A DNA stretch of 27,230 bases from a virus, in IMG/VR virus record IMGVR_UViG_3300032093_000690, positions 1 through 27,230 of that record; one strand, given 5' to 3'. The translations under genes were made by a program, and so were the position numbers. This document shows, one piece after another, positions 8,686-22,263 of this stretch. Each line of letters opens with the position of its first letter. Position 1 is the first letter of the stretch. Under the pieces are notes generated by a model. It was given only the letters and a program-made list of their open reading frames with translations. It had not been told where the DNA came from and did not search any database.

Positions 8686-8831
8686 CAATCCCCCCAAATT
8701 TCGCATCTAGTCTTATCTAGTACGAATGCCCCTGAGTAGTATGTTATGCCAATAAAACATGATTTTGGATACATTCTGATGAAGCTACTGAGGCCACACC
8801 AATGGCTGAAAACTTTGATGCGATTTTCCAT
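8685..8831 (-). CDS. tiny aromatic-rich ORF H3 (array 2), 48 aa
   Basis: Starts MENRIKVFSHW with TAATG overlapping the stop of H2, and ends TRCEIWGD with the stop overlapping the next start as TGATG. The end of the gene reads TAGATGC..TGGGGGGAT, a variant of the junction motif found in the other arrays, here acting as the RBS of the ordinary 56-aa gene. Confidence 0.6.
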   Translation of the reverse strand: MENRIKVFSHWCGLSSFIRMYPKSCFIGITYYSGAFVLDKTRCEIWGD

Positions 8832-9010: not shown

Positions 9011-9192
9011 CTCCAGAATCCAAAATTAGATTGAGTCGATCCTTTAAAAACTCTGCTTACTGTAGGTCTGGAAAATGGATTTAAAAATATTACGAAACTG
9101 TTGCTATACGCTTCATCACCTGAAAAATTACCAGAAAAATGGCAATCATTCAAATCACTCAAAACATACTTGTGAAAATTGAATATGTGCAT
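9007..9192 (-). CDS. tiny aromatic-rich ORF H1 (array 2), 61 aa
   Basis: Starts MHIFNFHKYV 16 bases after the stop of the four-repeat gene, with a weak CAGG upstream. Phe/Ser/Asn-rich, with NPFSRPTVSR as the internal motif and NFGFWS at the end, which matches NFGFYSSDWV of ORF O in array 5. First of a coupled run of array genes. Confidence 0.6.
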   Translation of the reverse strand: MHIFNFHKYVLSDLNDCHFSGNFSGDEAYSNSFVIFLNPFSRPTVSRVFKGSTQSNFGFWS

Positions 9193-9208
9193 AGAAACCT
9201 GTTTTAAT

Positions 9209-9967
9209 TTAGCTTCGTGCTAGCTGTTTCTTAGCGTGATATGCAGCAATTACTTTTTTGTTATGTTCTGCTCTTTTTTTGTCAAACTCTTCAGGGGGTA
9301 GCCAAACCTCGTTGCCTAAAGCTGAGTATGTCCAGAATTTCCATTTGGTCAATGGATTGACATCTCCTCTGCTGAATTTTAAGTGTGGATTTTCCTTGCG
9401 TTGTTTTTGTTTTTCATGCCTAATTTGTTTGTATTTTTCAACAATTTCTTTGCCCTTTTTTTGCCTGTAAATAGTTGAAAGTAATTTAATTCTTTCTCTG
9501 CGCTTTTGCAGTTTTTCTACTGGTCCATACTTAACTTTATGGTTTTTGATTTCAACTACTACTAAATCTGGAATAGACGGATGCTTATCGCCTAAACAAA
9601 CATTTGGTGGGGGAATTTTACTTTTCCTTTTTTCATAGGCAATTCTTTGTTGTTCTCGTCTTTTTAGTTTGTATGCTTCGAGTTCTGCAAGAGTGCCAAA
9701 TTTAGGCGTTCCACTTGCATGCAAACAAATGAAGTACAAGCCAGTTTCTGGATTGTACTTGCCTTTAAAATTTCTTTGTTCAATTGGTAATTTTTCTTGA
9801 TTTTTTTTATATTTTTCAATTCTTCTTTTATAACTTGTGATTCTGGCTGATTCGTACTGGTCGAACTTTTCTTTAGTCAACCAGACTTGGTATTTCTTTT
9901 TATTTTTACTTGATTTATAGGACCAAAAAATCTTGCCATCATCTCGCACGAATCCTTTGCGAAACAT
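9209..9967 (-). CDS. phage four-repeat protein, 252 aa
   Basis: Highly basic, with four tandem units of about 50 residues at roughly 5-50, 66-115, 124-170 and 200-247. The best-kept units (1 and 4) read FWSY..QVWLTKEKFDQY and FWTY..EVWLPPEEFDKK; units 3 and 4 start GD-x-x-P, each followed by a Lys/Arg-rich helix. I recall similar repeats from hypothetical proteins of large phages and cyanobacteria; a link to DNA or RNA binding would be a guess from the charge. Preceded by the 47-aa gene and followed by array 2 in one minus operon. Confidence 0.65.
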   Translation of the reverse strand: MFRKGFVRDDGKIFWSYKSSKNKKKYQVWLTKEKFDQYESARITSYKRRIEKYKKNQEKLPIEQRNFKGKYNPETGLYFICLHASGTPKFGTLAELEAYKLKRREQQRIAYEKRKSKIPPPNVCLGDKHPSIPDLVVVEIKNHKVKYGPVEKLQKRRERIKLLSTIYRQKKGKEIVEKYKQIRHEKQKQRKENPHLKFSRGDVNPLTKWKFWTYSALGNEVWLPPEEFDKKRAEHNKKVIAAYHAKKQLARS

Positions 9968-9996
9968 ACCGCCTCCAGCTTTATGTGGACTACATA

Positions 9997-10140
9997 TTAA
10001 TTGTTTTTGGAACCTTTGACAAATTTTTTCATGAGAAATTCTTTCTCATTTTTGTCTTTAGGAATCTTTACTACTTTTTTAGTGCAGGTTACAATTTCAA
10101 CTTTTTTCTCAACCAGTAGCCATTCTTTAAATGTTTTCAT
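9997..10140 (-). CDS. small basic protein with capsid-targeting-like N-terminus, 47 aa
   Basis: Reads MKTFKEWLLVEKKVEIVTC and then a Lys-rich body. The first ten residues resemble the T4 capsid-targeting sequence MKTYQEFIAEA and the N-termini of the genes at 964 and 12787, with a possible protease site after LVE. TATAAATA lies four bases before the ATG, too close to serve this start by T4 spacing. Small, basic and possibly packaged with DNA; inferred only. Confidence 0.55.
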   Translation of the reverse strand: MKTFKEWLLVEKKVEIVTCTKKVVKIPKDKNEKEFLMKKFVKGSKNN

Positions 10141-10160
10141 ATGATATTTATACATTTTAT

Positions 10161-10382
10161 TCAAAATTCACCGATATAGACAGATATTGGTTCATATGTT
10201 TCTTCTCCAATTTTAATTTGACCAATAGCTTTGCCACCAGTCTCAAATGCCATACTGGAGTAAACACTAAGTCTTTGGTTTGAATTTACTTTTATTAGTT
10301 GGCTTTTGTCGAGGTCAGATAGAATCTCAATTAGTTTTCCAACTGAGATGTATTCTTCTTCTGGATATTCTGATGTAAACAT
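10161..10382 (-). CDS. hypothetical protein, 73 aa
   Basis: A good GGAGG precedes the ATG by five bases. Starts MFTSEYPEEEYISVGKLIEI; an acidic N-terminus is followed by a helix and a beta-rich end. Ordinary composition, no motif recognised. It lies between tiny ORF 10405-10587 and the 47-aa gene in one minus operon. Confidence 0.7.
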   Translation of the reverse strand: MFTSEYPEEEYISVGKLIEILSDLDKSQLIKVNSNQRLSVYSSMAFETGGKAIGQIKIGEETYEPISVYIGEF

Positions 10383-10404
10383 GATTCCTCCATAAATAAA
10401 TGAG

Positions 10405-10587
10405 TTAATTGTTTAAATCCTCGAACTTCCAACAATTACTGTTGTACCAATGTCCAAATCCTAACGCTTGGTGTATCCTAAACGCTGTGCTTTGAGGACA
10501 TAGGAATCCAAAAACTCTTCTCTTGAAAAAGAATGTTCCATTTGGGAATGCATTACCTTCAGGGATTGCTGCGTGTTTCAGGATCAT
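10405..10587 (-). CDS. tiny aromatic-rich ORF, lone array-family member, 60 aa
   Basis: Starts MILKHAAIPEGNAF, has FFFKRRVFGFLCPQ in the middle and ends NSNCWKFEDLNN, matching NSRCWGNRI of array 4. A GTG at 10599 would add four residues. First gene of the minus operon that later includes array 2, and the only family member here not next to another one. This shows the family also occurs as single genes. Confidence 0.6.
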   Translation of the reverse strand: MILKHAAIPEGNAFPNGTFFFKRRVFGFLCPQSTAFRIHQALGFGHWYNSNCWKFEDLNN

Positions 10588-10665
10588 TTTTTCTTTCACA
10601 ATTTCTTCAATATATATTCATATAACTTTAACATACTTTGCAACGCCAGCATGGTTAAATAAAGT

Positions 10666-11337
10666 ATGCTTGATGCGATTATTATCTCTGACATTCATCT
10701 AGGCTCCGATGTGTGCCAAGCAGAAGCCTTAGACAAATTCCTCAAGAAAATTGATAAACTACAGCCACAAAGACTCATAGTCAATGGCGATCTGTTCGAT
10801 TGCCTCAATTTCAACAAACTCCCAAAACACCATTGGCACATTCTCAAAGACCTCAGAAAATTATCTAAACACACAGAAGTTATCTGGATTAACGGTAATC
10901 ATGACGGACATTATGAATATGTTAGTAACCTCCTAGGACTTGAATTTTTCCAAGAATACACTTTTGAAAGTGATAATAAAAAAATAATTTGCCTGCACGG
11001 AGATAGATTCGATAGCTTTATTCAAAAGTATCCCATGTTCACCAAATGTGCCGATGCAATTTATTGGCTTATGCAAAAATTAGATAAAAGCCATTCCCTA
11101 GCCGTCTATGCCAAAAAGAACAGCAAGACATTCCTCAGAAATAGTGAAAGAATAAAGACTGAAGCGGTGAAATATGCGAAAGAAAACGGAGCAGATATTG
11201 TCCTGTGTGGTCATACTCATTTCCCAGAAACAACTTTAGTAAAAGGAATATGGTACGGCAATTCCGGTTGCTGGACTGACAAACAATGCTCCTACTTAAC
11301 CGTTTACCAAGGAGCAGTTACCCTGAATTATATATGA
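10666..11337 (+). CDS. calcineurin-like metallophosphoesterase, LpxH-like
   Basis: 223 aa with all five metallophosphoesterase blocks in order: SDIHLG (8-13), NGDLFD, NGNHD, LHGDRFD and GHTH, giving the Asp/His/Asn ligands of a two-metal site. Layout and length fit the UDP-2,3-diacylglucosamine diphosphatase (LpxH) branch, whose cellular role is lipid A synthesis, but also related phage phosphoesterases of unknown substrate. Its stop overlaps the GT4 start (ATGA), so the two probably act together on an envelope glycolipid. Family secure; substrate inferred. Confidence 0.85.
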   Translation: MLDAIIISDIHLGSDVCQAEALDKFLKKIDKLQPQRLIVNGDLFDCLNFNKLPKHHWHILKDLRKLSKHTEVIWINGNHDGHYEYVSNLLGLEFFQEYTFESDNKKIICLHGDRFDSFIQKYPMFTKCADAIYWLMQKLDKSHSLAVYAKKNSKTFLRNSERIKTEAVKYAKENGADIVLCGHTHFPETTLVKGIWYGNSGCWTDKQCSYLTVYQGAVTLNYI

Positions 11338-12335
11338 ACATACTAATAGCCACAGACGCTTGGGAACCACAAGTAAACGGCGTTGTCAAAACACTAAAAA
11401 ATACTATTCAAAAACTTGAAGAAATGGGACATATAGTAAAATTAATAACACCATCGGATTACTGGTGCTTCAAAGTTCCATTCACAAAAGATATACTTAC
11501 TCCATATTGGGTCAGAACCAAAACAATCAAAGATAAAATTGAATGGGCTGATTATATCCATATAAGCACAGAAGGAACTATAGGACTAGCCGTAAGAAAA
11601 TATTGCATCAAAAAGGGTTACCAATTCACCACAGCTTATCACACAGATATTCCCAACTTCTTCTATAAAACATTTGGTTTTGGCCTAAGATTATCCAAGA
11701 AATATCTAAGATGGTTTCATAACAAATCAGCCTGTGTCATGGCTACTACCGAACAGAATATACTTATTTTGAAGTCTTATGGGTTTACTGCACCAATAAA
11801 AATTTGGAGCAGAGGTGTCGATACTGATCTGTTTGTTCCTGTTGCAAAAGAAAAGTCAGATAGGATTCGTCTGGTCTATTGCGGCAGAGTTAGTCCAGAA
11901 AAAGGACTTAATGACTTCGTTCAACTGGATAACCTTTATGAAAAGACAATCATAGGCGATGGAATCTGTTTGGATTCTTATCAGTTTATTCATCCAGAGA
12001 TTAGATTCACAGGATTCTTACATGGCAAGGAATTAGCAAATGAATTGGCTTCCCATGACATTTTTGTATTCCCAAGTAAATTTGATACATTTGGACTGGT
12101 TAATATTGAAGCCATGAGTTGTGGGCTACCAGTAGCTTGTTATGATTGCAAAGGTGCTGGTGAAATAGTATCTGGTGGTAAAAGAATAGGATATGCTTCT
12201 CATGATTTGAATTTCGCTATTAAAGAATGCCATGATCTTATTTATAACAATAATTGCAGAGAACATGTTTTAAAAAATTACACTTGGAATAACGCTACTT
12301 CTCAATTCTTTGGAAATTTAGTTAGGAAAATATGA
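11334..12335 (+). CDS. GT4-family (GT-B) glycosyltransferase, MgtA-like
   Basis: 333 aa. The N-terminal domain opens MNILIATDAWEPQVNGVV, typical of GT4 lipid mannosyl/glucosyl-transferases; the C-terminal domain has LVYCGRVSPEKGLNDF and SKFDTFGLVNIEAMSCGLPV. The latter is the nucleotide-sugar site in its MgtA-type form (DTFG..EA). The ATG at 11334 makes an ATGA overlap with the phosphoesterase; an ATG at 11286 would lie inside that gene. Probably transfers a hexose to a lipid or glycan acceptor. Its own stop overlaps the EF-hand gene. Confidence 0.85.
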   Translation: MNILIATDAWEPQVNGVVKTLKNTIQKLEEMGHIVKLITPSDYWCFKVPFTKDILTPYWVRTKTIKDKIEWADYIHISTEGTIGLAVRKYCIKKGYQFTTAYHTDIPNFFYKTFGFGLRLSKKYLRWFHNKSACVMATTEQNILILKSYGFTAPIKIWSRGVDTDLFVPVAKEKSDRIRLVYCGRVSPEKGLNDFVQLDNLYEKTIIGDGICLDSYQFIHPEIRFTGFLHGKELANELASHDIFVFPSKFDTFGLVNIEAMSCGLPVACYDCKGAGEIVSGGKRIGYASHDLNFAIKECHDLIYNNNCREHVLKNYTWNNATSQFFGNLVRKI

Positions 12336-12577
12336 AATTTATAGATAGTATATTTGCGGGTTTGACCTGTATTATTTGTTCGTTTCTTGTAATGTCTCAA
12401 GAGAATAGTTTTCAAGATATGCTTGAACGATTTGATTGTAATTGCAATATGATGTTGGAGAAGCATGAATTACCAAAAAAGATATGGCATAAAGTTGGTA
12501 GTAGAGATTGGGACAAGAATGGATTGGTAGATAGAAAAGAATATGAAGGAATTATTGGTTGGTTCGGGAGGGAATGA
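12332..12577 (+). CDS. exported or membrane-anchored EF-hand calcium-binding protein, 81 aa
   Basis: Residues 1-22 form a hydrophobic signal peptide or anchor (IFAGLTCIICSFLVMS). Two EF-hand loops follow: D35-x-N-x-N-x-x-L-E-x-x-E46, and the textbook D59-x-D-x-N-G-x-V-D-x-x-E70. A paired EF-hand after an export signal suggests a periplasmic or outer-surface calcium binder. It is coupled to the GT4 gene by ATGA. EF-hands are uncommon in phages; dockerin-type loops are an alternative reading. Confidence 0.75.
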   Translation: MKFIDSIFAGLTCIICSFLVMSQENSFQDMLERFDCNCNMMLEKHELPKKIWHKVGSRDWDKNGLVDRKEYEGIIGWFGRE

Positions 12578-12734
12578 TCTCTAGGATTTTCTGCCCCAAC
12601 CTTTTGTACCCGTCTTTTACATCCTTGATTGCATCTTTAAGAGTGCCTCCAACTACCGTAGCAGTTCCCCATCTCTCTTCTTTAACCTTACCAATTTTGA
12701 AAATGAATCGGACTTTGAAATTGTGTTCGGTCAT
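12552..12734 (-). CDS. small basic beta-rich protein, 60 aa
   Basis: Starts MTEHNFKVRFIFKIGKVKEE with AAGG eight bases upstream; an upstream in-frame ATG at 12827 lies in the divergent Nudix gene and is rejected. Two strands around WGTATVVGGT and a C-terminal helix of Lys/Asp residues. It overlaps the 3' end of the EF-hand gene by 26 bases. No motif recognised; perhaps a modified-nucleotide or RNA-binding fold, but unsupported. Confidence 0.65.
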   Translation of the reverse strand: MTEHNFKVRFIFKIGKVKEERWGTATVVGGTLKDAIKDVKDGYKRLGQKILEIIPSRTNQ

Positions 12735-12786
12735 ATTATATACCTTTATGTTTGAAACTAGATTTATTTTATTATAAGGTTGATTT

Positions 12787-13539
12787 ATGAATTTTAAATT
12801 TTGGTTAGTTGAAGAAGAGTCTTCCAATAGGGAATATTGGGGTCCAATTAGTTATGCTACTAAAGAGGGTGATTATCTTAAAATTACAGCTGACATGCTT
12901 GATAAGCCACTTTATATTCCTTACAGCGATGAAGTTGCGTATGTCAACCAATATCCTAAAAATAAAACTTTAAATCCACCTTGGAATAAGTATTTCCGTT
13001 ATTCTGTTGCCCCAGATGGAAAATATGTTGTAAATTATGTTGAGAACAGGGCTGTTGACTGCCTTTGCTATTCACCAAAATACAATGCTGTCTATTTGAT
13101 TGATAGGAAAGCACCTCCTTTCGGCATAGCCATTCCCGGCGGTTTTTTCGATACGCATGACGGTATTAATGTGAACAATCCATCTGATCCACAGACTATT
13201 GGTGCGGTTACAGCTGCTAGAGAATTAGAGGAAGAAACTGGTGCAAAGGTAAGTGCTAGTGATCTTTCGTATATTGGTCGCTTCAGGACAGATGCGTCTG
13301 ATACAAGAGAAAAGAATTTTTATATCTGGGCTTACTTTTACATCGTTCCAGATGATATGATTCATGATTTCAAGTTTGGTGATGATGCTGGTCAGGCACC
13401 CGGAAGCCCATCTTTACAGCGAGAAGGATTAAATGGTTGGTATGAGGTTGATAATATTCCAAATTTAGTTTTCCCACATCATTATGATATTATAAAAACA
13501 GCAATGAATAATTTAGTCAATCAAAGGGAAAGTAAATGA
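12787..13539 (+). CDS. Nudix hydrolase, ADP-ribose pyrophosphatase (NUDT9-like)
   Basis: 250 aa. Residues 86-122 (ENRAVDCLCYSP..., IDRKAPPFGIAIPGGFFD) and the RELEEETG motif at 145-152 give the Nudix box, with Glu residues that bind metal. The gap between GG and RE is about 12 residues longer than the usual box, and the first Glu of the box is not obvious. The N-terminal 85 residues and the sequence around the box recall NUDT9-type ADP-ribose pyrophosphatases, which split ADP-ribose into AMP and ribose-5-phosphate. The start MNFKFWLVEEE resembles a capsid-targeting sequence. AAGG RBS. Confidence 0.82.
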   Translation: MNFKFWLVEEESSNREYWGPISYATKEGDYLKITADMLDKPLYIPYSDEVAYVNQYPKNKTLNPPWNKYFRYSVAPDGKYVVNYVENRAVDCLCYSPKYNAVYLIDRKAPPFGIAIPGGFFDTHDGINVNNPSDPQTIGAVTAARELEEETGAKVSASDLSYIGRFRTDASDTREKNFYIWAYFYIVPDDMIHDFKFGDDAGQAPGSPSLQREGLNGWYEVDNIPNLVFPHHYDIIKTAMNNLVNQRESK

Positions 13540-13569
13540 TGCTGGTTTTCAAATTGTAAAAATCTATTA

Positions 13570-13686
13570 TCAAATCCCAATTGTATAAAAGGCTGCAAAG
13601 AAATCGTTGCTGTACTTCCAATACAGGAAAGCCAAAGTTCCAGCCACAATGATTGCTGCAATAATCAATTTATTTTTTGTTTTCAT
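13570..13686 (-). CDS. single-pass small membrane protein, 38 aa
   Basis: MKTKN, then a hydrophobic run (LIIAAIIVAGTLAFLYW, residues 7-23), then a short tail. Coupled by ATGA to ORF M3; the GGGGGAA that codes for the end of M3 is its RBS. Last gene of array 3. Small membrane proteins also sit in or next to arrays 4 and 5. Confidence 0.6.
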   Translation of the reverse strand: MKTKNKLIIAAIIVAGTLAFLYWKYSNDFFAAFYTIGI

Positions 13687-13856
13687 ATACTTCCCCCAAA
13701 ATTATAACTGCAAGTAAAGTTGGAATTAAAAACCTGAGTGCGCCAACCTCTAGCTGTCCATTCTATATAGAGTGTCCTATTTTGCATCCAGTTATAACTC
13801 CTGTAATGACTAAAACGCCAAACTTCTACCATGCTGGGATTTGGAGATCGGAACAT
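13683..13856 (-). CDS. tiny aromatic-rich ORF M3 (array 3), 57 aa
   Basis: Starts MFRSPNPSMVEVWRFSHYRS with TGATG over the stop of M2 and ends CSYNFGGSI with ATGA into the membrane gene. Four Trp and many Arg/Tyr/Asn. Confidence 0.62.
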   Translation of the reverse strand: MFRSPNPSMVEVWRFSHYRSYNWMQNRTLYIEWTARGWRTQVFNSNFTCSYNFGGSI

Positions 13857-14008
13857 CAAAATTTTCTCTCAACAAAATTAAATGAATAAGCTAATCCAAC
13901 TGTAAAAGTCATACTGTATGAAATGCCTCTAAACATATCAGAATTGCTTCTAAAATGCTTCCAAATTAAAATATGACTAGGGGCAGTTTGTTTGTGGAAG
14001 GTTCTCAT
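13856..14008 (-). CDS. tiny aromatic-rich ORF M2 (array 3), 50 aa
   Basis: Starts MRTFHKQTAPSHILIW in an ATGA overlap with ORF M and stops in a TGATG overlap with M3. Phe/Ser/Arg-rich, including WKHFRSN and the C-terminal AYSFNFVERKF. Both start and stop are fixed by the couplings. Confidence 0.6.
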   Translation of the reverse strand: MRTFHKQTAPSHILIWKHFRSNSDMFRGISYSMTFTVGLAYSFNFVERKF

Positions 14009-14172
14009 ATGTTGTGTTCCCAGCATCTGCTTTTATAGTCTGGTGATACAAACAACCACGAAATACTTGTTTTATAAACAAGAGCTTCACCCCAATGTCT
14101 GCTGTAGCCTAGTGTATAAAATTTTGAATACTGACGATCTGTATTCCATGAATTGCTGGATGGGTGGGTCAT
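14005..14172 (-). CDS. tiny aromatic-rich ORF M (array 3), 55 aa
   Basis: Starts MTHPSSNSWNTD in an ATGA overlap with ORF N (an ATG at 14190 lies within N). Contains LGYSRHWGEA and ends KSRCWEHNI, the typical SRCW ending. Its stop forms ATGA with M2. Confidence 0.65.
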   Translation of the reverse strand: MTHPSSNSWNTDRQYSKFYTLGYSRHWGEALVYKTSISWLFVSPDYKSRCWEHNI

Positions 14173-14351
14173 CCTCTGAAACCCCAACAAATAGAATTGA
14201 AATATAAATCCCTTGCTCTGTTATGCCAATGCCTAGACCTCCCGCATCCATTCAAATAGGCTAAAGAGCTTTGATATATAAATCTAGAAAATGGGCTTGA
14301 TGTACCGAACAGAGTTATTTTCATGCCTTCGACTGTGTGGACTGAAATCAT
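14169..14351 (-). CDS. tiny aromatic-rich ORF N (array 3), 60 aa
   Basis: The ATG at 14351 (MISVHTVEGMK) follows GGGGGATTGAG, the RBS-like end of the preceding 113-aa gene, one base after that gene's stop. Contains SPFSRF and GRSRHWHNRARD, and ends NSICWGFRG. Its stop is in an ATGA overlap with M. Confidence 0.63.
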   Translation of the reverse strand: MISVHTVEGMKITLFGTSSPFSRFIYQSSLAYLNGCGRSRHWHNRARDLYFNSICWGFRG

Positions 14352-15315: not shown

Positions 15316-15501
15316 TTATTCCCCAGTCCAATTGTGTTTTCTTTCCAATTCTTCAATTCTATTCGCTAAAGAATGAAAGGTGTCAACAACAATATCTTGC
15401 ATTCTGCCATGATGTTCTTTATGAATTTTAAACATTTGCCAAGTGAACCAAGCGTTCAGTATGAGTGAGGCGATAAAAAGTCCTATAATTATAGGGAGCA
15501 T
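15316..15501 (-). CDS. small membrane-anchored coiled protein, 61 aa
   Basis: Residues 2-20 (LPIIIGLFIASLILNAWFTW) form one membrane helix, followed by a charged helix (IEELERKHNW). The ATG at 15501 makes TGATG with the stop of array ORF L, with GAGGCGG as RBS; an upstream ATG at 15537 lies in L. Layout resembles phage spanin- or holin-like small proteins, but no lysis gene is nearby. Confidence 0.68.
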   Translation of the reverse strand: MLPIIIGLFIASLILNAWFTWQMFKIHKEHHGRMQDIVVDTFHSLANRIEELERKHNWTGE

Positions 15502-15704
15502 CACCGCCTCACATTGAATCTGTTGAAAGTAAAACAATGTTCCCTACCGCCAAAACCCAATCCATGAGCAATACTGATCCAGAAGCTTTTGCGAACATAT
15601 TGCCCATATGATGAAAGTCCAAACAAACCTGTCATGTTATAACGAAATAACCCAAATGGGCTACAGTCCATATAGAATACTGCTTGTGGTTTAGGAAATT
15701 TCAT
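15501..15704 (-). CDS. tiny aromatic-rich ORF L (array 4), 67 aa
   Basis: Starts MKFPKPQAVFYMDCSPFG in an ATGA overlap with the short ORF L', and ends FTFNRFNVRR with TGATG into the membrane gene. Gly/Phe/Arg-rich; SYGQYVRKSFW aligns loosely with the KYGSALCF stretch of ORF I. Confidence 0.62.
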   Translation of the reverse strand: MKFPKPQAVFYMDCSPFGLFRYNMTGLFGLSSYGQYVRKSFWISIAHGLGFGGREHCFTFNRFNVRR

Positions 15705-15759
15705 ATCCTATTCCCCCAGCACCTGCTATTTTGGCTCATAGTCCAGTATCTGCCTTCAG
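15701..15759. repeat. direct repeat, copy 1 (flanks the 190-aa gene)
   Basis: About 59 bases, matching 16352-16410 with three mismatches by my count. It covers the shared end of ORFs L' and C plus the junction to the next start. The two copies are 651 bases apart. Confidence 0.85.
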
Positions 15760-15796
15760 AAAAACCGGAGGAAAAGAAATCGTCAGCTCCAATCAT
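15701..15796 (-). CDS. tiny ORF L' (array 4), shortened copy of ORF C, 31 aa
   Basis: Starts MIGADDFFSSGFSEG inside the end of the 190-aa gene and ends GRYWTMSQNSRCWGNRI, identical in protein to the end of ORF C. Four of the DNA differences from C in this stretch are silent in this frame (GAC/GAT, TTT/TTC, AGT/AGC, AGA/AGG), which supports translation in this frame. It looks like a family member that lost its middle. Confidence 0.55.
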   Translation of the reverse strand: MIGADDFFSSGFSEGRYWTMSQNSRCWGNRI

Positions 15797-16355
15797 AATC
15801 ATCATCATCATCTTCTTCTTCATAAATGGGGCCACAAAAGAATTCATTATCGAAATGCCGACAATCCTGAAATGGGAGTCCCCATACTATTCCACCGGGC
15901 CAGCCACCAAAGTTTTCATTCCATGTTATCTTCCAATAATGACCTCTAAAATAAGCAAAATCATGCCAGTTTTTATTTGTAGCCCAAGATTCATGAAAAA
16001 TCGTAGAAGAGGTTGAAAACAACCTAATTCTTTCTCCCCAAGGATTTTCATGCCCACTTTCAACAAGCATCCTCAATGTTGGATTTTCATGCGGAGAATT
16101 TTTTATTTTATAAATATCAAATATTACAGACCAATCCTCGCAAACATAAAAAAGTTCAATTTCATCATATCCACCTATATGTGGACTGAATCCAGCAGGT
16201 ATATCATATAAGCTTTTTCTTGGATAAGAAAGTTCTATGTCCAACCTTAGATGTTTATCTAAAGGTTGAACTGGATATTTTTCAAAATTATTTAAACGAA
16301 TATTTATCCATTCATCATAGCTAATTTCAGAAATTCCATTGCATTTAAGTATCAT
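15783..16355 (-). CDS. hypothetical protein in array 4, 190 aa, acidic tail
   Basis: Starts MILKCNGISEISYDEW, i.e. with the Met-Ile-Leu-Lys start of the tiny ORFs, in an ATGA overlap with ORF C. The second half is Trp/Phe-rich (SWATNKNWHDFAYFRGHYW, FGGWPGGIVWGL), resembling the SWSATN stretch of array 1, and the protein ends EEEDDDDDYDWS. It could be a long relative of the tiny family or a cassette placed in the array. Flanked by 59-base direct repeats. No known domain recognised. Confidence 0.7.
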   Translation of the reverse strand: MILKCNGISEISYDEWINIRLNNFEKYPVQPLDKHLRLDIELSYPRKSLYDIPAGFSPHIGGYDEIELFYVCEDWSVIFDIYKIKNSPHENPTLRMLVESGHENPWGERIRLFSTSSTIFHESWATNKNWHDFAYFRGHYWKITWNENFGGWPGGIVWGLPFQDCRHFDNEFFCGPIYEEEDDDDDYDWS

Positions 16356-16410
16356 ATCCTATTCCCCCAGCATCTACTATTTTGGCTCATAGTCCAGTAT
16401 CTGCCTTGAG
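16352..16410. repeat. direct repeat, copy 2 (end of ORF C)
   Basis: Partner of 15701-15759. Recombination between the two would remove exactly 651 bases (the 190-aa gene plus L') and join C directly to L with the ATGA junction intact. Confidence 0.85.
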
Positions 16411-16549
16411 AAAAAGTATAGGAAAAAAAGTCATAATGTTTGAATGTACTGAGAGAAAGCTCGACAAGAGTAGTGCCCCATGAAGTAGATGAGTTATGCC
16501 CTCTGCTGAACAGGCGCATGGAGGATAGGCTGTGGATGCGAAATATCAT
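16352..16549 (-). CDS. tiny aromatic-rich ORF C (array 4), 65 aa
   Basis: Starts MIFRIHSLSSMRLFSRG in an ATGA overlap with ORF D, with AAGGAG five bases upstream. Ends GRYWTMSQNSRCWGNRI; the bases for CWGNR (TGCTGGGGGAATAGG) precede the next ATG and can act as its RBS. Clear family member with both conserved ends and the internal LFSRG motif. Confidence 0.68.
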   Translation of the reverse strand: MIFRIHSLSSMRLFSRGHNSSTSWGTTLVELSLSTFKHYDFFSYTFSQGRYWTMSQNSRCWGNRI

Positions 16550-16716
16550 CTCCTTATCTCAATCCCTCTAGACAAAAAGAACACCTCATAGTCCACATGA
16601 TAGTAGATATTTCTAGTGAAGCAACTGCAATAAAATTTTCTTTGGAAAAAAGACCTAGATCTGCTATCCGACCAGCAATGTGCTAAATCTGTTGTTTTAT
16701 ACGATGGAATGAACAT
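16546..16716 (-). CDS. tiny aromatic-rich ORF D (array 4), 56 aa
   Basis: Starts MFIPSYKTTDLAHCW with TAATG over the stop of E. Ser/Arg/Phe/Tyr-rich (SDSRSRSFFQRKFYCSCFTR), ends SRGIEIRR; the end codons AGG AGA supply the RBS for ORF C. Stop in ATGA overlap. Confidence 0.62.
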   Translation of the reverse strand: MFIPSYKTTDLAHCWSDSRSRSFFQRKFYCSCFTRNIYYHVDYEVFFLSRGIEIRR

Positions 16717-16907
16717 TAAATTTTGCCTTTCCAGCATTCACTACGGTTGCTTACAGCACTCTGAATAAATCCAAATGCTTGACAGTAATCCCATTCCCTA
16801 CGACCAATCCAACTTGTCGGAAAATTAAATGGGAATATTTTGGAGCCAATAAATGATTCGTCCCAGAAGGGTTCGCAGTAGTTCCAGCTATGGATGCGCT
16901 GGATCAT
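16716..16907 (-). CDS. tiny aromatic-rich ORF E (array 4), 63 aa
   Basis: Starts MIQRIHSWNYCEPFW in an ATGA overlap with ORF F; five Trp residues. GRREWDYCQAFGF aligns with FRPNEYCCLAFGS of ORF P in array 5, one of the few internal matches between arrays. Ends SECWKGKI; stop in TAATG overlap with D. Confidence 0.66.
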   Translation of the reverse strand: MIQRIHSWNYCEPFWDESFIGSKIFPFNFPTSWIGRREWDYCQAFGFIQSAVSNRSECWKGKI

Positions 16908-17071
16908 ATATCCCTATTCCAATTAAAAGAAAAAGTTGAACAGCGGTGAAAGCACTTGGATTGCTGCTTTCTAGCTACACACTCTGACCAGCAAAGATTC
17001 CAGTTTAAAGAAAACCAATAAATGCCATTAAAAGATTCGACTCTAGAACGACTGACATTTTTGAGGTTCAT
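16904..17071 (-). CDS. tiny aromatic-rich ORF F (array 4), 55 aa
   Basis: Starts MNLKNVSRSRVESF with AAGGAG eight bases upstream; the frame is open further upstream to 17254, but those starts lie inside F'. The 46-base gap to the F' stop is the longest inside the array. Contains WNLCWSEC and ends SFNWNRDI; stop in ATGA overlap with E. Confidence 0.6.
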   Translation of the reverse strand: MNLKNVSRSRVESFNGIYWFSLNWNLCWSECVARKQQSKCFHRCSTFSFNWNRDI

Positions 17072-17117
17072 CTGAATAGCTCCTTGAATAGCTTTTTGCC
17101 TTAAAAACAAGCGAAAT

Positions 17118-17297
17118 TCAAAAAATCCAATAGTTTTGTGAATAGCCTTGTGAATACCCATAACTCCATATTGCCTTGACACCAAATGCCCTGCGCTTTG
17201 ACAATGTACTATATTTTGTGCCAATAAAGCAATAGCTTGTATCGCTGGCATCATTCCAGCACCAACATTCTTTGTAGGAGTTAATCAGATGGATCAT
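17118..17297 (-). CDS. tiny aromatic-rich ORF F' (array 4), 59 aa
   Basis: Starts MIHLINSYKECWCW in an ATGA overlap with ORF G. Trp, Cys and Tyr-rich, with AFGVKAIWSYGYSQGYSQ and the end NYWIF. An ATG at 17351 lies in G and is rejected. Confidence 0.62.
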   Translation of the reverse strand: MIHLINSYKECWCWNDASDTSYCFIGTKYSTLSKRRAFGVKAIWSYGYSQGYSQNYWIF

Positions 17298-17500
17298 ATC
17301 CCGCTCCCCCAGCAACTCGACCAAAATCCATAGCGCAATTTCGATCTGCATTGCCTTTCAAATATCACACTCCAAAAACCCATGCTTCTGCCTACTGTAT
17401 TCCTCAGAGTGCAATATTGGAAGCGTGGAAAGCAATGGCTAATGCTGTTATCGCCACTCCAGCATCCATTGTTTGAAATAGTGTTAATTCGGATAATCAA
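17294..17500 (-). CDS. tiny aromatic-rich ORF G (array 4), 68 aa
   Basis: Starts at a TTG (MIIRINTISNNGCW) in a TTGA overlap with ORF H and with AGGAG just upstream, which fixes this unusual start. Ends FWSSCWGSGI over the G-rich junction motif; stop in ATGA overlap with F'. Confidence 0.64.
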   Translation of the reverse strand: MIIRINTISNNGCWSGDNSISHCFPRFQYCTLRNTVGRSMGFWSVIFERQCRSKLRYGFWSSCWGSGI

Positions 17501-17637
17501 AGGCTCCTCACTCGCTCTCTGCTGAACATATAACTATAATATCCACCGTTTAAACGACTGCTTACAACATCATAAAAAATGAATTGATAATTGCCTTCTG
17601 ACCAACATTTGCTGCTTCTCATACGGCAGAACATCAT
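17497..17637 (-). CDS. tiny aromatic-rich ORF H (array 4), 46 aa
   Basis: Starts MMFCRMRSSKCWSEG with TAGGAG nine bases upstream, 11 bases after the stop of ORF I. Contains NYQFIFYDVVSSR and ends YMFSRERVRSL. The ATG at 17685 lies inside I and is rejected. Confidence 0.6.
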   Translation of the reverse strand: MMFCRMRSSKCWSEGNYQFIFYDVVSSRLNGGYYSYMFSRERVRSL

Positions 17638-17648
17638 TGGAAAGTCTC

Positions 17649-17855
17649 CTAAATTTGTGTCCTTAAAGCAAATGGTCTTCCGCATGTCATCTGTCCATCG
17701 TGAAATGCATTAGACATAAATGAATTTCCTTCAAAACAAAGTGCTGACCCATATTTTCCATGAAAAGAAACTGAAGTTCCAAAAGAATCAAACAGATAAG
17801 AAAATCTTCGTAGATGTAATGTATTCATGCCATTACAGTTTCTAGTGAATATCAT
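17649..17855 (-). CDS. tiny aromatic-rich ORF I (array 4), 68 aa
   Basis: Starts MIFTRNCNGMNTLHLRRFSY one base after the stop of J (TAGCATG), behind GGGGGTGGAGAG. Contains FSYLFDSFG, KYGSALCFEGN and TCGRPFALRTQI. A more Gly/Asn-rich middle than its neighbours. Confidence 0.63.
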   Translation of the reverse strand: MIFTRNCNGMNTLHLRRFSYLFDSFGTSVSFHGKYGSALCFEGNSFMSNAFHDGQMTCGRPFALRTQI

Positions 17856-17856
17856 G

Positions 17857-18045
17857 CTAATCTCTCCACCCCCAGCACTTACTGTAGTACGACCATCTGC
17901 TTGTTAATTGGGAGGTCTTACTCAACAATATGGAATACCGATCCCTTTTGCCCACAAAATTATCTCCCCATATTACGCCTCTGGTGCCATGATGCGACCA
18001 GATTTGCCAATGAAATGATCTGGAACTGCCGAACTTATAGAACAT
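17857..18045 (-). CDS. tiny aromatic-rich ORF J (array 4), 62 aa
   Basis: Starts MFYKFGSSRSFHWQIW with TAATG over the stop of K, behind TGGGGGA. Ends YYSKCWGWRD over a GCTGGGGGTGGAGA junction. Trp/Ser/Arg-rich. Confidence 0.64.
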   Translation of the reverse strand: MFYKFGSSRSFHWQIWSHHGTRGVIWGDNFVGKRDRYSILLSKTSQLTSRWSYYSKCWGWRD

Positions 18046-18239
18046 TAGTCTATCCCCCACAAAAAAGAATCATTCTTTTGGGAGCAAGTTATATTTTTAG
18101 ACCAACAATGGGAAAATGACAATGCTGCTCTGGCTGTCATAGCTCTAGTGTCACATAGACACCAATTATTTCTCCAATTGTGACTGCCAGAATATATTTG
18201 GCTGAAGATGGCGCAGTCATGCCCGTTGATGAAAAGCAT
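18045..18239 (-). CDS. tiny aromatic-rich ORF K (array 4, first), 64 aa
   Basis: Starts MLFINGHDCAIFSQI with AAGGC upstream, downstream of an AT-rich divergent spacer; it heads the longest array operon. Contains NWRNNWCLCDTRAM, LSFSHCWSKN and the end FLWGID. Stop in TAATG overlap with J. Confidence 0.62.
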   Translation of the reverse strand: MLFINGHDCAIFSQIYSGSHNWRNNWCLCDTRAMTARAALSFSHCWSKNITCSQKNDSFLWGID

Positions 18240-18344
18240 CTTGCCTTCTTTTTTTATTTTTTATGATAAATTTTCATTATATAATCAAAGTTCGAAAATA
18301 CAATAAAATTTTGCCATAGTAGTTGGTATGTCGTAAGGAATAAT

Positions 18345-18989
18345 ATGAATGAAATAAACCAAAAAATATATGAAAATTTAGAGTTGTGGCCTGAAGATAC
18401 AGATGGCTGGGGAGGAAATGATTCTATTTTTGAAGAAATGATATCTATGTCTTTGCCTTCAGTTGTAGTAGAAATAGGTTCTTGGAAAGGCCAATCAACT
18501 ATTAACATGGGCAAAATTTTAAAAAAACTAGGATTGAAACATACCAAGATATATGCCATTGACACATGGTTAGGAGCGACAGAATTTTGGACAACACACA
18601 AGGATACTCCAGAAAGAAATCTCCATCTTAAAAATGGTTATCCTCAAATATATTATCAGTTCTTGAGTAATGTTGTTCACAATAATTTACAAGATACGAT
18701 TATTCCAATAACAAATACATCAATTACAGGCTTAAAAATATTGAAACACCATGCGATAAAGCCAGAGCTTGTTTACATAGATGCATCTCATGAAGAGGAA
18801 GATGTTTACGCAGACTTGAAGTACTCATTTGATATGGTAGAAAAAGGAATTGTTTTTGGTCATGATTATGATTGGTGTGCAGGTGTAAAAAGTGCCGTAG
18901 ACAGATTTGCAAATGAGAACAGACTAAGGCTTGAATCTAAAGCAGCTTTTTGGTTTATAAAAAAGTTGAAATATCCACAAAAAAAATAA
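18345..18989 (+). CDS. class I SAM-dependent methyltransferase (Methyltransf_24 type)
   Basis: 214 aa. SAM motif VVEIGSWKGQS (41-51), strand 2 YAIDTWLGA and the later LVYIDASHEEEDVYADL and FGHDYDW match the same Methyltransf_24 group as the gene at 4148, but the two are divergent. TAAGGA is the RBS. It stands alone between two minus operons, separated from array 4 by an AT-rich divergent spacer. Members of this group methylate sugars or small metabolites; the target here is unknown. Confidence 0.82.
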   Translation: MNEINQKIYENLELWPEDTDGWGGNDSIFEEMISMSLPSVVVEIGSWKGQSTINMGKILKKLGLKHTKIYAIDTWLGATEFWTTHKDTPERNLHLKNGYPQIYYQFLSNVVHNNLQDTIIPITNTSITGLKILKHHAIKPELVYIDASHEEEDVYADLKYSFDMVEKGIVFGHDYDWCAGVKSAVDRFANENRLRLESKAAFWFIKKLKYPQKK

Positions 18990-19026
18990 TTTTTTTATGA
19001 TCTAAAAATTTGTAGACTTATCGTGG

Positions 19027-19191
19027 TTATTTCTGGAGAGCATTTTTATGTTTCCTTTTCTCTCTATACTGTCTAATTTTGTCTTGATTATTTGCTTCCC
19101 ATATTTTTCTTTGTTCACGAAGTTTTTCTTTATTCTTAATTCGCCATGCTAACCTTGCTTCTTCTCTTCTGATTCTACTTTTATATGGCAT
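19027..19191 (-). CDS. small very basic helical protein, 54 aa
   Basis: Starts MPYKSRIRREEARLAWRIKN with TAATG over the preceding stop and GGAG upstream. Almost entirely Lys/Arg/Glu helix (KEKLREQRKIW). Could bind nucleic acid, from charge only. Last gene of the long minus operon; the AT-rich spacer after it has no convincing terminator. Confidence 0.65.
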   Translation of the reverse strand: MPYKSRIRREEARLAWRIKNKEKLREQRKIWEANNQDKIRQYREKRKHKNALQK

Positions 19192-19307
19192 TACTTCTCC
19201 CTTCTTTTAATTTTTCCACAACTAATGTCACAACACAAGAAATAAAGCTGTGACATAACAAATGTCACAGCTACACCTGTCCAAAATCCATCCCAATAAC
19301 TAGACAT
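19191..19307 (-). CDS. small single-pass membrane protein, 38 aa
   Basis: Reads MSSYWDGFWTGVAVTFVMSQ with a hydrophobic segment to about residue 25, then Cys residues and a KIKRREK tail. Its ATG lies eight bases inside the preceding gene's end and its stop makes TAATG with the next start. It contains an 11-bp perfect hairpin. Supported mainly by the couplings. Confidence 0.5.
   Translation of the reverse strand: MSSYWDGFWTGVAVTFVMSQLYFLCCDISCGKIKRREK
19246..19272. promoter_or_regulatory. perfect 11-bp hairpin (AGCTGTGACAT)
   Basis: AGCTGTGACAT, five-base loop, ATGTCACAGCT; a third ATGTCACA lies at 19224-19231. On the minus strand it is followed by TTTATTTCTT, so it could be a leaky terminator, an RNA processing site or an operator. 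It lies inside the predicted 38-aa gene. Confidence 0.5.
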
Positions 19308-19458
19308 TACGGTCACTCACAGGATTGCATGCAATACTATTAAATATATTTTTCATTTCTGTTGTCATAGAATCATACCCTAAATTAGATAGATGCCGGT
19401 TTGAATGCAGGTGTTTTATAATGTCTTCCATAATTTTTTCTTCTAATGACTTGTCCAT
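19300..19458 (-). CDS. small helical protein, 52 aa
   Basis: GGAG seven bases before the ATG. Starts MDKSLEEKIMEDIIKHLHSN; acidic helical first half, then NLGYDSMTTEMKNIF. Ordinary composition and no motif recognised. It overlaps the next gene by eight bases. Confidence 0.65.
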   Translation of the reverse strand: MDKSLEEKIMEDIIKHLHSNRHLSNLGYDSMTTEMKNIFNSIACNPVSDRNV

Positions 19459-19500
19459 GTTCTACTCCAAATGCGAAAAAAACTATGAATCCAATTCGAA

Positions 19501-19692
19501 TTAAAGGTCGGAAGGCTTGCCAATTCCAGAAAAGTTGCTCATTCTTTTTGCAACTTCCGTAGCAATTGCATATTGGGGATGAGATTGTTCTTTTGTTTGG
19601 CAGGTGCCACAAATATAGTCTGAATTAAATTTGCTCATACAGCAGTCAGACATAGATTGACGACAACGGTCACATTTCGTTGGATACGGCAT
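19501..19692 (-). CDS. small zinc-ribbon protein, 63 aa
   Basis: Two CxxC knuckles (C7-D-R-C10 and C28-G-T-C31) plus C17-C18 form a likely treble-clef or zinc-ribbon site. AAGGAG six bases before the ATG at 19692; an ATG at 19773 would start inside array ORF O. The C-terminus (ATEVAKRMSNFSG) is helical. Such proteins often bind nucleic acids or partner proteins; no specific role can be named. Confidence 0.75.
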   Translation of the reverse strand: MPYPTKCDRCRQSMSDCCMSKFNSDYICGTCQTKEQSHPQYAIATEVAKRMSNFSGIGKPSDL

Positions 19693-19744
19693 AGAAACTC
19701 CTTTTAAAAAACACTTAGGCATAATACTATAAAAAATTACTGAA

Positions 19745-19930
19745 TCAAACCCAATCGCTGGAATAAAATCCAAAATTTTTAGATTGTTGAAGTCGTAGAT
19801 TAGTATTTCTGGCTGAAAAACTTTTCCAAAGATATGAATACGGCATAAAATGATGGAAGAAACAAGCTATATTGGAACTTGCTTTTTGATGCAATATCCA
19901 GCAGCATGATTCTGCATGTAACAACCTCAT
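19745..19930 (-). CDS. tiny aromatic-rich ORF O (array 5), 61 aa
   Basis: Starts MRLLHAESCCWILHQK in an ATGA overlap with ORF P. Contains YSYLWKSFSARNTN and ends FGFYSSDWV, the same SDWV ending as P. The bases for this ending (GCGATTGGGT.TGA) are the array-5 form of the junction motif. Last of its array. Confidence 0.62.
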   Translation of the reverse strand: MRLLHAESCCWILHQKASSNIACFFHHFMPYSYLWKSFSARNTNLRLQQSKNFGFYSSDWV

Positions 19931-20157
19931 ACCCAATCGCTCCAACTGTGCTGTTCTTCAAATGAAAATTCTTTCCATACTGTAGATTCGCAAGCACCAA
20001 ACACTTCACTCCAAGCTTGCCCTGTATTTCTACTAACTCTATTGAATCTACTTCCAAAAGCCAAACAACAATATTCATTAGGTCTGAATGTCACACCGAA
20101 TCTTTGATTTCGGGCGAATACAGAATAAGTGTGTCTGCATGTGTAATTGAAAATCAC
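19927..20157 (-). CDS. aromatic-rich ORF P (array 5), 76 aa
   Basis: Starts at a GTG (MIFNYTCRHTYSVFAR) in a GTGA overlap with ORF Q, with GGAG upstream; this restores the Met-Ile-Phe start. An ATG at 20184 lies inside Q. FRPNEYCCLAFGSRF aligns with ORF E; ends EQHSWSDWV. The longest of the tiny family members. Confidence 0.64.
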   Translation of the reverse strand: MIFNYTCRHTYSVFARNQRFGVTFRPNEYCCLAFGSRFNRVSRNTGQAWSEVFGACESTVWKEFSFEEQHSWSDWV

Positions 20158-20339
20158 GGGCTTCTCCACAACATATTGAAGCAATGACTGTCATAAATAA
20201 ACGGATGACTGAATAATTGGCTTTGAGTTCTGCCGTCAAAGCTAAGTGCTCTATAAAGTTCACTATTATTTATGTCTTTGAATGAGCAAGCGTTACCTGC
20301 TGAAAAAACATCACAATTAAAATTTAAAACCTTTAACAT
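20154..20339 (-). CDS. tiny aromatic-rich ORF Q (array 5), 61 aa
   Basis: Starts MLKVLNFNCDVFSAGN inside the last 23 bases of the 108-aa gene. Contains ELYRALSFDGRTQSQLF and ends NMLWRSP. Stop in GTGA overlap with P. The deeper upstream overlap makes the exact start less sure. Confidence 0.58.
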   Translation of the reverse strand: MLKVLNFNCDVFSAGNACSFKDINNSELYRALSFDGRTQSQLFSHPFIYDSHCFNMLWRSP

Positions 20340-20643
20340 GACTTTCGTTGAAAACCTTTGATTCAGTTATGCCTGAAGGCCACCATGATCTCGGTTCGGT
20401 TGTCCAGTTCAAACTTCTTTTGACTCTTTTATCACCATACTTTGACCAATAGTAAAGTATAGTGGATCGATCAGCGTTTGGAAACCTTTCTCTTTGTCTC
20501 CATGGTGATGAATACAGAGAAGTAATAAAAACATAACTTTTGTGACTTAGATCAACAGTTCTTTTTTGTTCATTCCAACTTGTATTTAATACTGGAGGCT
20601 TGTTAGTTGTAAAACCATATACTGAAAATGGAATTTCTGACAT
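20317..20643 (-). CDS. Trp-rich protein, possible long array-family member, 108 aa
   Basis: Starts MSEIPFSVYGFTTNKPP with TGATG over the stop of the 27-aa membrane peptide. Eight or so Trp (SWNEQ, SSPWRQRERF, YYWSKYG, NWTTEPRSWWPSG). KSYVFITSLY..W and PRSWW align loosely with EYCCLAFGS..W and HSWSD of ORF P. No known domain recognised. Confidence 0.65.
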   Translation of the reverse strand: MSEIPFSVYGFTTNKPPVLNTSWNEQKRTVDLSHKSYVFITSLYSSPWRQRERFPNADRSTILYYWSKYGDKRVKRSLNWTTEPRSWWPSGITESKVFNESHVKGFKF

Positions 20644-20726
20644 CACTCTCTCACTTTCTCTGCAACTATATATATCATACCCACTAGTACAGATACAGCG
20701 ACGAGAAAAGAAAGAGTATTAATCAT
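20643..20726 (-). CDS. membrane peptide, 27 aa
   Basis: AGGAG six bases before the ATG. MINTL, a hydrophobic run (SFLVAVSVLVGMIYIVA), then EKVRE; stop in TGATG overlap with the 108-aa gene. Very short, but RBS and coupling are both good. Confidence 0.5.
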   Translation of the reverse strand: MINTLSFLVAVSVLVGMIYIVAEKVRE

Positions 20727-20735
20727 GGTGATCTC

Positions 20736-20933
20736 CTAAATGTTGCCAGACCAATGTCCCCAGCTGCTATTTAAATTGAACTCATCTCCCCAAGTAAAAT
20801 GTCTGCTGAAAAAGTATTTGTTAGAAAAACACTCTGATTCTAATATAAAATCTCTTTCTGTCCAACAATCAGACCGATTCCAATTATTTTGGAATTGGCA
20901 AACATCACTTCGTTGGCCAACTTTAAACAACAT
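20736..20933 (-). CDS. tiny aromatic-rich ORF R (array 5), 65 aa
   Basis: Starts MLFKVGQRSDVCQF; a TTG at 20939 in a TTGA overlap with ORF S is an equally good start. Contains NNWNRSDCWTERD and YFFSRHFTWGDE, and ends SSWGHWSGNI. The stop codon TAG is part of the AGGAG RBS of the 27-aa peptide. Confidence 0.62.
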   Translation of the reverse strand: MLFKVGQRSDVCQFQNNWNRSDCWTERDFILESECFSNKYFFSRHFTWGDEFNLNSSWGHWSGNI

Positions 20934-20935
20934 TT

Positions 20936-21118
20936 TCAATTTCCAAAAGCAAAAGAACGAGAATTAAACTGTGAGAATAGGACGCTGCCAGTTCTTTCAA
21001 AAAAAGCTATTGAAAAACTACTATGGAATTTAAAACCATATGAGTATTTATATCTTGCTAACCGTGTGCCAGAATATCTTCTTTCAAATCTGAATGATTT
21101 GCTTTCTGGGAAGAACAT
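20936..21118 (-). CDS. tiny aromatic-rich ORF S (array 5), 60 aa
   Basis: Starts MFFPESKSFRFERRYSG within the last 60 bases of the upstream Cys-rich gene, in another frame. Phe/Ser/Arg-rich, with AFFERTGSVLFSQFNSRSFA. The long overlap is unlike the other junctions; either the upstream gene really ends inside S or one frame has been broken. Confidence 0.5.
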   Translation of the reverse strand: MFFPESKSFRFERRYSGTRLARYKYSYGFKFHSSFSIAFFERTGSVLFSQFNSRSFAFGN

Positions 21119-21324
21119 AGGCTCATGAACCTCTGGTATGGAATAAACTTCTGTTCAACGCCATGCCAAATTTCAATTTTGTCGAAGTTTTCTGCTCGGA
21201 TATTTTCTTTGCTGTCAATCCAGACTTGATTTGGACAGCAGCAGCCTTTGGTCACTCTACTTTTTACACCAATCCATGCATGAAATACAGAGTATGAGTT
21301 GCATTCTAAACATTTAACTACCAT
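21058..21324 (-). CDS. Cys-rich hypothetical protein, 88 aa
   Basis: Starts MVVKCLECNSYSVFHAW; C5/C8 and C28-C30 could bind zinc. The second half is charged (DSKENIRAENFDKIEIWHG). The ATG is preceded by GCAGAGATTGGGTG, very like the SDWV-coding junction of ORFs O and P, and by a 12-codon ORF (21362-21324) whose stop makes TGATG with this start. That tiny ORF may be the stump of another array member. Confidence 0.6.
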   Translation of the reverse strand: MVVKCLECNSYSVFHAWIGVKSRVTKGCCCPNQVWIDSKENIRAENFDKIEIWHGVEQKFIPYQRFMSLCSSQKANHSDLKEDILAHG

Positions 21325-21401
21325 CACCCAATCTCTGCTGCCCAAAATATTTCAAGACACATTAGGAAATGTGTTTACGAAAGTCAAATAATTACATGAC
21401 T

Positions 21402-21608
21402 TTATTTGGGTTTTGAATTTTCTTTTTGCCAAGCTTCAAAGGCAGCAGAAAGAGCAAGGGCTTCGTCATCAATTTTTTTCATCTGGAGTTTGTGATCCTC
21501 CAAAAGTTTTTTGAGTTCTGCGCTGGCTTTTTTCTTAGCCTCATGAAGTTGTGAAATTTTTTGGGAAAATTCAACAAACTTGTCAGATAGTAAAAGTTCT
21601 GGGTTCAT
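21402..21608 (-). CDS. coiled-coil protein, 68 aa
   Basis: Starts MNPELLLSDKFVEFSQKISQ two bases after the nuclease stop. Residues 15-60 are a Lys/Glu/Ala/Leu heptad-like helix (HEAKKKASAELKKLLEDHK). It probably forms a dimeric coil. Coupled to the upstream nuclease, it could be a partner; that is inferred. Confidence 0.72.
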   Translation of the reverse strand: MNPELLLSDKFVEFSQKISQLHEAKKKASAELKKLLEDHKLQMKKIDDEALALSAAFEAWQKENSKPK

Positions 21609-21612
21609 AATT

Positions 21613-22140
21613 TTAAATGAGTAAAGGTTGATATTTTTCTTTAAATTGAGAAAAATCGAGGAGATCACTATAAAGCATATTCCAGCAATCTGCTTTTACT
21701 ACGAAATTATTGCTGCCATCAACTTGTCCCTTTTTCAAGAATCTCGCTTCTTTCATATATTCTTTTTTGTCGTAGTATCCCATAATATAAACAGAAATAG
21801 GAAGCAACATATCTTGTGGCCAAAGTACTCTTGTAAAAACATAATATTTACAATTTTGTTTAGTATTGAAATTGGCAATACTTGCTTCATGGTATGACTG
21901 TGGAATGACAGATGTTTTCTTGGCTTTTACATCTAAAGATATACTATTGTATGTTATGTCATAGTTGTATGTGTTATTTCTTTGAGATTCGATTTTGAGA
22001 TACGATTTTACTGCCTCTTCTCCAACAAAGCCTGTAAAGTTGCCTTTACCTCTTAGGATAGAGTTTTTGCATTCTCCCAAAGATATGGAATCCTTGTAGG
22101 CACGAAGAACCATATCCTTGGTAAGCTTAATATTTATCAT
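21613..22140 (-). CDS. PD-(D/E)XK-like nuclease-fold protein
   Basis: 175 aa. GNFTGFVGEEAVKSYL (33-48) places E41 in the first helix; YNYDITYNSISLDVKAKKTS gives D70-x-K72 in the core strand pair, the pattern of PD-(D/E)XK nucleases such as Holliday-junction resolvases and some restriction or homing enzymes. The C-terminal half (KYYVFTRVLWPQ) has the next core strand. GAGG RBS. First gene of the long minus operon containing array 5. Could also be an inactive relative. Confidence 0.65.
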   Translation of the reverse strand: MINIKLTKDMVLRAYKDSISLGECKNSILRGKGNFTGFVGEEAVKSYLKIESQRNNTYNYDITYNSISLDVKAKKTSVIPQSYHEASIANFNTKQNCKYYVFTRVLWPQDMLLPISVYIMGYYDKKEYMKEARFLKKGQVDGSNNFVVKADCWNMLYSDLLDFSQFKEKYQPLLI

Positions 22141-22263
22141 ATTTTTCCTCTTTGTTACATTTTAACGGTAAAACCATTTGTAGCAAATTTATGGTTGTCG
22201 TTTTTTATTGTGTCCCGTATAAGATAAGGATGTAAATGGAGGATTGTACAAGGAGGAATCACC

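Follow-up and report, generated by a model that had tools for sequence, protein, structure and literature searches.

The mobile regulatory cassettes of T4-type phages known as PeSLs consist of a promoter and a stem-loop. Cyanophage S-PM2 carries an 'ORFanage', a gene-exchange hotspot that is lost by deletion in culture and for which its authors propose mispackaging (PMC4503421); the term 'direct repeat' does not occur in that text. Start-Associated Sequences of cluster K mycobacteriophages are short conserved ribosome-binding-site sequences placed before the starts of several genes, and they sometimes hold the stop of the upstream gene (PMC3203893). Finally, in immunity arrays, new genes are described as being added beside retained pieces of old genes, and homology-facilitated illegitimate recombination has been proposed there (PMC5361080).

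We analysed a phage locus in which a 190-aa gene, g190, lies between two copies of the 3′ end of a small gene. The stretch of DNA studied, hereafter the window, is a record of 27,230 bases from a bacterial virus that only metagenomes have revealed, in a sample series which we take to be of freshwater origin. It is matched over its whole length by G001 (IMGVR_UViG_3300008267_013251, 145,015 bp), in which the repeat is also present; between window 1-14217 and G001, the sole difference found is a 10-N scaffold gap opposite window 11506-11533. The genome is of phage type, with a virion structural protein of family phrog_1645, a DNA polymerase of family phrog_405, helicases, RCC1-repeat proteins and two Nol-like carbamoyltransferases. 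The polymerase is DnaE-like, its nearest relative in the phage collection (41% identity) being encoded by a 595-kb uncultured phage, and no near DNA match of window 3000-27230 was found in 50,697 phage records. Some other parts of this phage deserve mention. One RCC1-repeat protein of 439 aa (window 6780-8099) contains 153-base repeats, and another of 2166 aa is encoded elsewhere (L032, 651-7151). Two separate ORFs (L028, 11890-13602, and L033, 3560-6088) both match phrog_405, possibly a split or a second polymerase. Genes of window 964-4151 and 11286-12335 weakly resemble nucleotidyltransferases, glycoside hydrolase 130 and glycosyltransferases, a set of the sugar-modification kind.

The minigene chain and its repeated 3′ end

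The features on which the analysis is based are the following; the minigene starts are our choice from the ORF list.

15501..18239, minus strand: chain of 11 minigenes plus g190, with overlaps of 1 or 4 bases at 7 of 11 junctions
16352..16549, minus strand: u16549, 65-aa minigene, the complete gene of which the repeat is a part, paralogous to u20939 without gaps
16352..16432, minus strand: repeat copy A, covering the final 26 codons of u16549 with its stop; the g190 start site lies at its end
15783..16355, minus strand: g190, 190-aa ORF whose start overlaps the u16549 stop by 4 bases, no family match
15701..15781, minus strand: repeat copy B, orphan tail between the g190 stop and the u15704 start, carrying the u15704 ribosome-binding site and ATGA
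15501..15704, minus strand: u15704, 67-aa minigene downstream of copy B
15701..15721, minus strand: junction motif TGCTGGGGGNNNRGGATATGA before u15704
16352..16372, minus strand: junction motif TGCTGGGGGNNNRGGATATGA before g190
17294..17314, minus strand: third exact copy of the junction motif TGCTGGGGGNNNRGGATATGA, before u17297
17857..18239, minus strand: minigenes u18239 and u18060, present as a diverged allele in strain L004
19745..21118, minus strand: second group, five similar small ORFs and one of 108 aa
20736..20933, minus strand: u20939, 65-aa minigene aligning without gaps to u16549

An earlier note, made from the letters of this stretch, had reported direct repeats of 59 bases around the 190-aa gene, and an exact count bears it out: 15701-15759 and 16352-16410 differ at 3 of 59 bases, are offset by 651, and flank g190. 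The similarity between the copies extends to 81 bases with 9 differences (88.9%), or alternatively to 86 bases at 87%. It includes an exact run of 31 nt, the longest exact repeat in the window; in 20 random windows generated under a first-order Markov model, the longest measured 14-17 nt. Both copies end in TGCTGGGGGAATAGGATATGA, made of CWGNRI-stop, a G-rich ribosome-binding site and an ATGA overlapping the next start, and the start-site sequence of g190 is identical to that of u15704 (same 21 bases). Copy B follows directly on the g190 stop (15783-15785) and runs to the ATGA that starts u15704, so that the 78-base spacer between these genes is copy B alone. Since the homology spans the g190 stop to the u15704 ATGA, the repeated block is delimited, within a few bases, as a gene plus a tail. 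No trace of the first 39 u16549 codons was found in copy B. The frame of copy B is open upstream over the end of g190, where ATG codons occur in a GAT run and a 40-aa ORF is possible. As also proposed in the note, an in-register crossover between the copies would excise 651 bp and join u16549 to u15704 with the ATGA intact.

The divergence of the two copies is biased towards silent changes. By codon position, A and B differ at 2/2/5 sites; over 26 codons, four codon differences are silent (D, F, S, R) and three change the residue (Y>S, T>G, Q>E). The four silent differences claimed earlier were therefore right, and so was the reading frame. With the small numbers available in 26 codons (5 silent changes over 13.3 silent sites, 4 non-silent changes), dS is about 0.52 and dN 0.06.

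In the window and the G001 stretches examined, TGCTGGGGGNNNRGGATATGA has three exact sites, all in this chain, and no other site was found at up to 3 mismatches. The 21-base motif was also met in four other viral records (L023-L026), once each and inside other long frames, which we treated as chance.

The minigenes encode proteins enriched in S, F, R, W and C. The alignment of u20939 with u16549 covers 65 codons without gaps, with a Z of 7.0 in frame 0 and of 1.7 and 2.3 in the other frames. This full-length match means that A belongs to a complete gene, and that B is a fragment. A second pair, u17500 and u17297, shares its first 32 codons (Z 6.4 in frame, 4.7 and 2.9 out of frame). Codon usage is a weak guide for minigenes, as several score as high or higher in another frame; u16549 itself scores −0.06 in its own frame and higher in another. 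The idea of one common minigene family was not borne out by leave-one-out profile ranks: among 1,690 frames, only u16549, u18239 and u17685 (3 of 16 small ORFs) came in the first ten, the ranks being 2, 4, 6, 29, 40, 49 and worse. From these alignments, the minigenes appear to comprise pairs of paralogues, and we claim no single family. A structure prediction from u16549 aligned with 13 other small ORFs was useless (pLDDT 43.7). We also considered whether the array was the remnant of a glycine-rich tail gene, now read in the wrong frame (AGGxGYD appears in the other one), and rejected this, as constraint acts in the minigene frame; the AGGxGYD motif was absent from frames of at least 150 residues in the phage stretches examined. 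A second match of u15704 (L020) was dropped, because by our reading it overlaps a long opposite-strand ORF of an unrelated phage. The 108-aa ORF (window 20317-20643) has a relative in the same phage, at L027 17393-17503, with 59% identity over 37 aa.

g190 and the exchange of minigenes between strains

Searches with g190 gave no match in Pfam, PHROGs and NCBIfam and no credible one in PADLOC or among phages, plasmids and genome contigs, and no curated model of these four sets (Pfam, PHROGs, NCBIfam, PADLOC) identified it as a known defence or anti-defence protein. A PADLOC hit to Cmr5 (E 0.013 only) was treated as noise. A Sphingomonas plasmid match (E 0.04) was dropped, as the matched region carries no annotation and is either interrupted by stops or unlike the remainder of g190. 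Genome scans with g190 and with u18239 returned no relative, and the single-sequence structure prediction of g190 was unreliable (mean pLDDT 38.1). The codon-usage score of g190 is 0.33, like that of the ordinary genes of the phage, so it does not have the look of a newly arrived gene.

The nearest diverged strain, L004 (IMGVR_UViG_3300008259_000532), shows exchange in the chain. It has 83 differences from the window in 17884-18305, against 34 in the 9,039 positions outside this patch. The patch takes in two adjacent minigenes, in which about 20% of positions differ under coding constraint. In u18239, 21 of 32 changes are synonymous where 8.4 are expected (0/5000 simulations), and in u18060, 20 of 42 where 9.9 are expected (p 0.0002); dS values are 1.21 and 0.97, respectively. 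Of six frames, the minigene frame alone lacks stops in both strains, and silent changes are most numerous there. Together with the two paralogous pairs described above, this speaks for the minigenes being real genes; the frame tests cover these two minigenes and the repeat. The comparison with L004 also shows that minigenes under protein-level constraint are swapped between strains of an otherwise near-identical phage.

The patch ends inside the last 27 bases of u18060, AGTAAGTGCTGGGGGTGGAGAGATTAG, which hold AGTAAGTGCTGGGGG; it breaks off, in other words, within the 3′ end of a minigene, where the TGCTGGGGG block of the g190 repeats recurs. Past the breakpoint, L004 is identical to the window from 17883 to 17770, that is for 114 bases, up to the contig end; L004 covers just these 114 bases beyond, and a single exchange breakpoint was seen. 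L004 thus provides one example of recombination that stops within a 3′ end built like those of the g190 repeats. The patch is an allele exchange and involves no gene gain. Mutagenesis by a DGR was rejected as its origin, since substitutions are of all kinds and A-sites are not favoured.

Several other differences between strains were recorded. Next to the patch, L004 is without any difference over about 3.8 kb (window 18418-22210), which makes a sharp mosaic border. Record L007 (IMGVR_UViG_3300008262_000089) is without window 19309-19644 (336 bases), with no obvious direct repeat at the ends, and L006 (IMGVR_UViG_3300021594_001038) without window 22821-22931, i.e. 111 bases or 37 codons inside a 402-aa ORF (22264-23472). 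All three of these near-identical records stop before reaching g190: L004 at window 17770, L007 at 18301 and L006 at 21153. When the viral collection was queried with g190, the downstream 113-aa gene, u15704, u16549 and the 20-base repeat core, G001 alone gave a true match, and no g190-less allele was found; nor did we find a record with a donor arrangement of the g190 block.

Origin of the g190 block

In this chain, many junctions have the ribosome-binding site and the start codon of a gene within the 3′ end of the preceding one. A plain insertion would sever the downstream gene from its start site, since this site lies in the previous gene. Starting from the observed anatomy, motif, divergence, coding frame and sister-strain exchange of neighbouring minigenes, we infer an insertion event and its direction, with copy B imported from another lineage to act as an adapter. 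The explanation we favour, with a probability of roughly 0.55, is that g190 and the tail of a diverged u16549-like gene were inserted at the stop/start junction, where the tail copy restored the u15704 start site. The g190 ORF and the last 26 codons of that gene would have entered the u16549/u15704 junction as a block, by a recombination in which the common 3′ end was probably the guide for one side at least, the other side perhaps being joined without homology. Copy A, within u16549, would then supply the start site of g190, and that of u15704 would be retained in copy B. As it includes a 3′ end of its own, such a block would insert without disrupting translation of the chain. Copy B would have been kept as a translation adapter and not as a working gene, a role suggested by its position and its letters.

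The note had hesitated between insertion and duplication, and had called the event recent. The answer to the former is probably both, a new gene with a duplicate-like tail. The latter is not supported: an A/B dS of about 0.5, set against a strain background of 34/9,039, means that B is no fresh copy of A in this population. Copy B would be either an old duplication or a segment that arrived already diverged, and the silent bias, on few changes, favours the latter; such a bias (small counts) is what B would show had it diverged within a functional gene. Several points speak against the favoured explanation: no record with an empty site or a donor arrangement was found, the single breakpoint seen belongs to an allele exchange, conservation of the 3′ end may stem from constraint on start sites and proteins alone, the codon-usage scores of the minigenes are weak, and their profile ranks show no common family.

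The same data can be read as a local tandem duplication, in which u16549 was doubled on the spot and the second copy afterwards had its first 39 codons replaced by g190, without any foreign tail. We hold this to be possible, if doubtful. A and B are indeed in-register paralogues 651 bases apart, and other neighbours, u17500 and u17297, are paralogous too; however, the silent-biased divergence suggests that B was long constrained as a full gene, the first 39 codons have left no trace, and the break falls directly after the g190 stop. Another, quite improbable reading is that the repeats form a cassette still being excised, the phage population being a mixture with and without g190. An exact run of 31 bases within 59 near-identical ones is enough homology for recombination, and the deletion would leave a complete u16549 and its ATGA, but g190 is present in both records that span the site and the viral collection yielded no empty one.

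An assembly artefact joining two strains comes to mind given the metagenomic origin and the contigs of related strains that end in or near the array. It is very hard to reconcile with the 9 of 81 sites that differ between the copies, which make a repeat artefact unlikely, with the ATGA junctions and frames that are intact on both sides, and with the agreement of two records, though possibly built from overlapping reads, across the whole window. We give as little credit to the proposal that copy B is kept for a product of its own, a putative 40-aa ORF starting in the GAT run at the end of g190 and translated in another frame. This frame stays open upstream across the end of g190 and contains several ATG codons, and B residues are conserved, yet the start-site role equally explains the conservation of the last bases.

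The insertion of gene plus tail can be extended to a broader, and so far unlikely, proposal: the conserved stop/start junction would be a general handle, by which genes accompanied by a copy of a minigene 3′ end are added, swapped or lost with start sites intact, the array being a self-repairing gene-loading dock without a recombinase of its own. Phages frequently acquire genes, but overlapping start sites should resist insertion, and this locus suggests a way round, in which the newcomer carries a copy of its neighbour's tail. If other records share this signature, a testable rule would follow for where overlapping phage operons accept new genes. Searches of the open-licence literature turned up no account of a tail duplicated together with a start site in this way.

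Comparison with described systems

Like the S-PM2 ORFanage, the locus strings together many small genes without assigned function, and the phage that carries it is large and aquatic (PMC4503421); from the coordinates, many junctions there also overlap by 4 bases. The small proteins of S-PM2 are however rich in D and E, compared to S, F, R, W and C here, and a tblastn of 17 concatenated small proteins against 50,697 phage records gave no match at E up to 10, S-PM2-type included. With PeSL cassettes, the locus shares repeated sequences between small genes, which there help shuffling (PMC4503421). Unlike them, it has no promoter or hairpin excess: sigma-70-type promoter-like sites number 22, against 23.8 in shuffles, and terminator-like sites 4, against 3.3. 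In an integron attC-type comparison, the g190 repeats showed no significant fold (RNA folding z −1.66 and −1.81).

As with Start-Associated Sequences, the same sequence precedes different genes (u17297, g190 and u15704, three exact sites). The differences are that their 13-base consensus GGGATAGGAGCCC shares, by eye, only part of its core with TGCTGGGGGAATAGGATATGA, that no extended inverted repeats are seen here, and that the present repeat is longer and encodes a protein tail. Immunity arrays are bacterial effector-immunity modules (PMC5361080), and the minigene chain gave no sign of such a function. By analogy, the insertion of the g190 block would be the kind of event proposed for these arrays.
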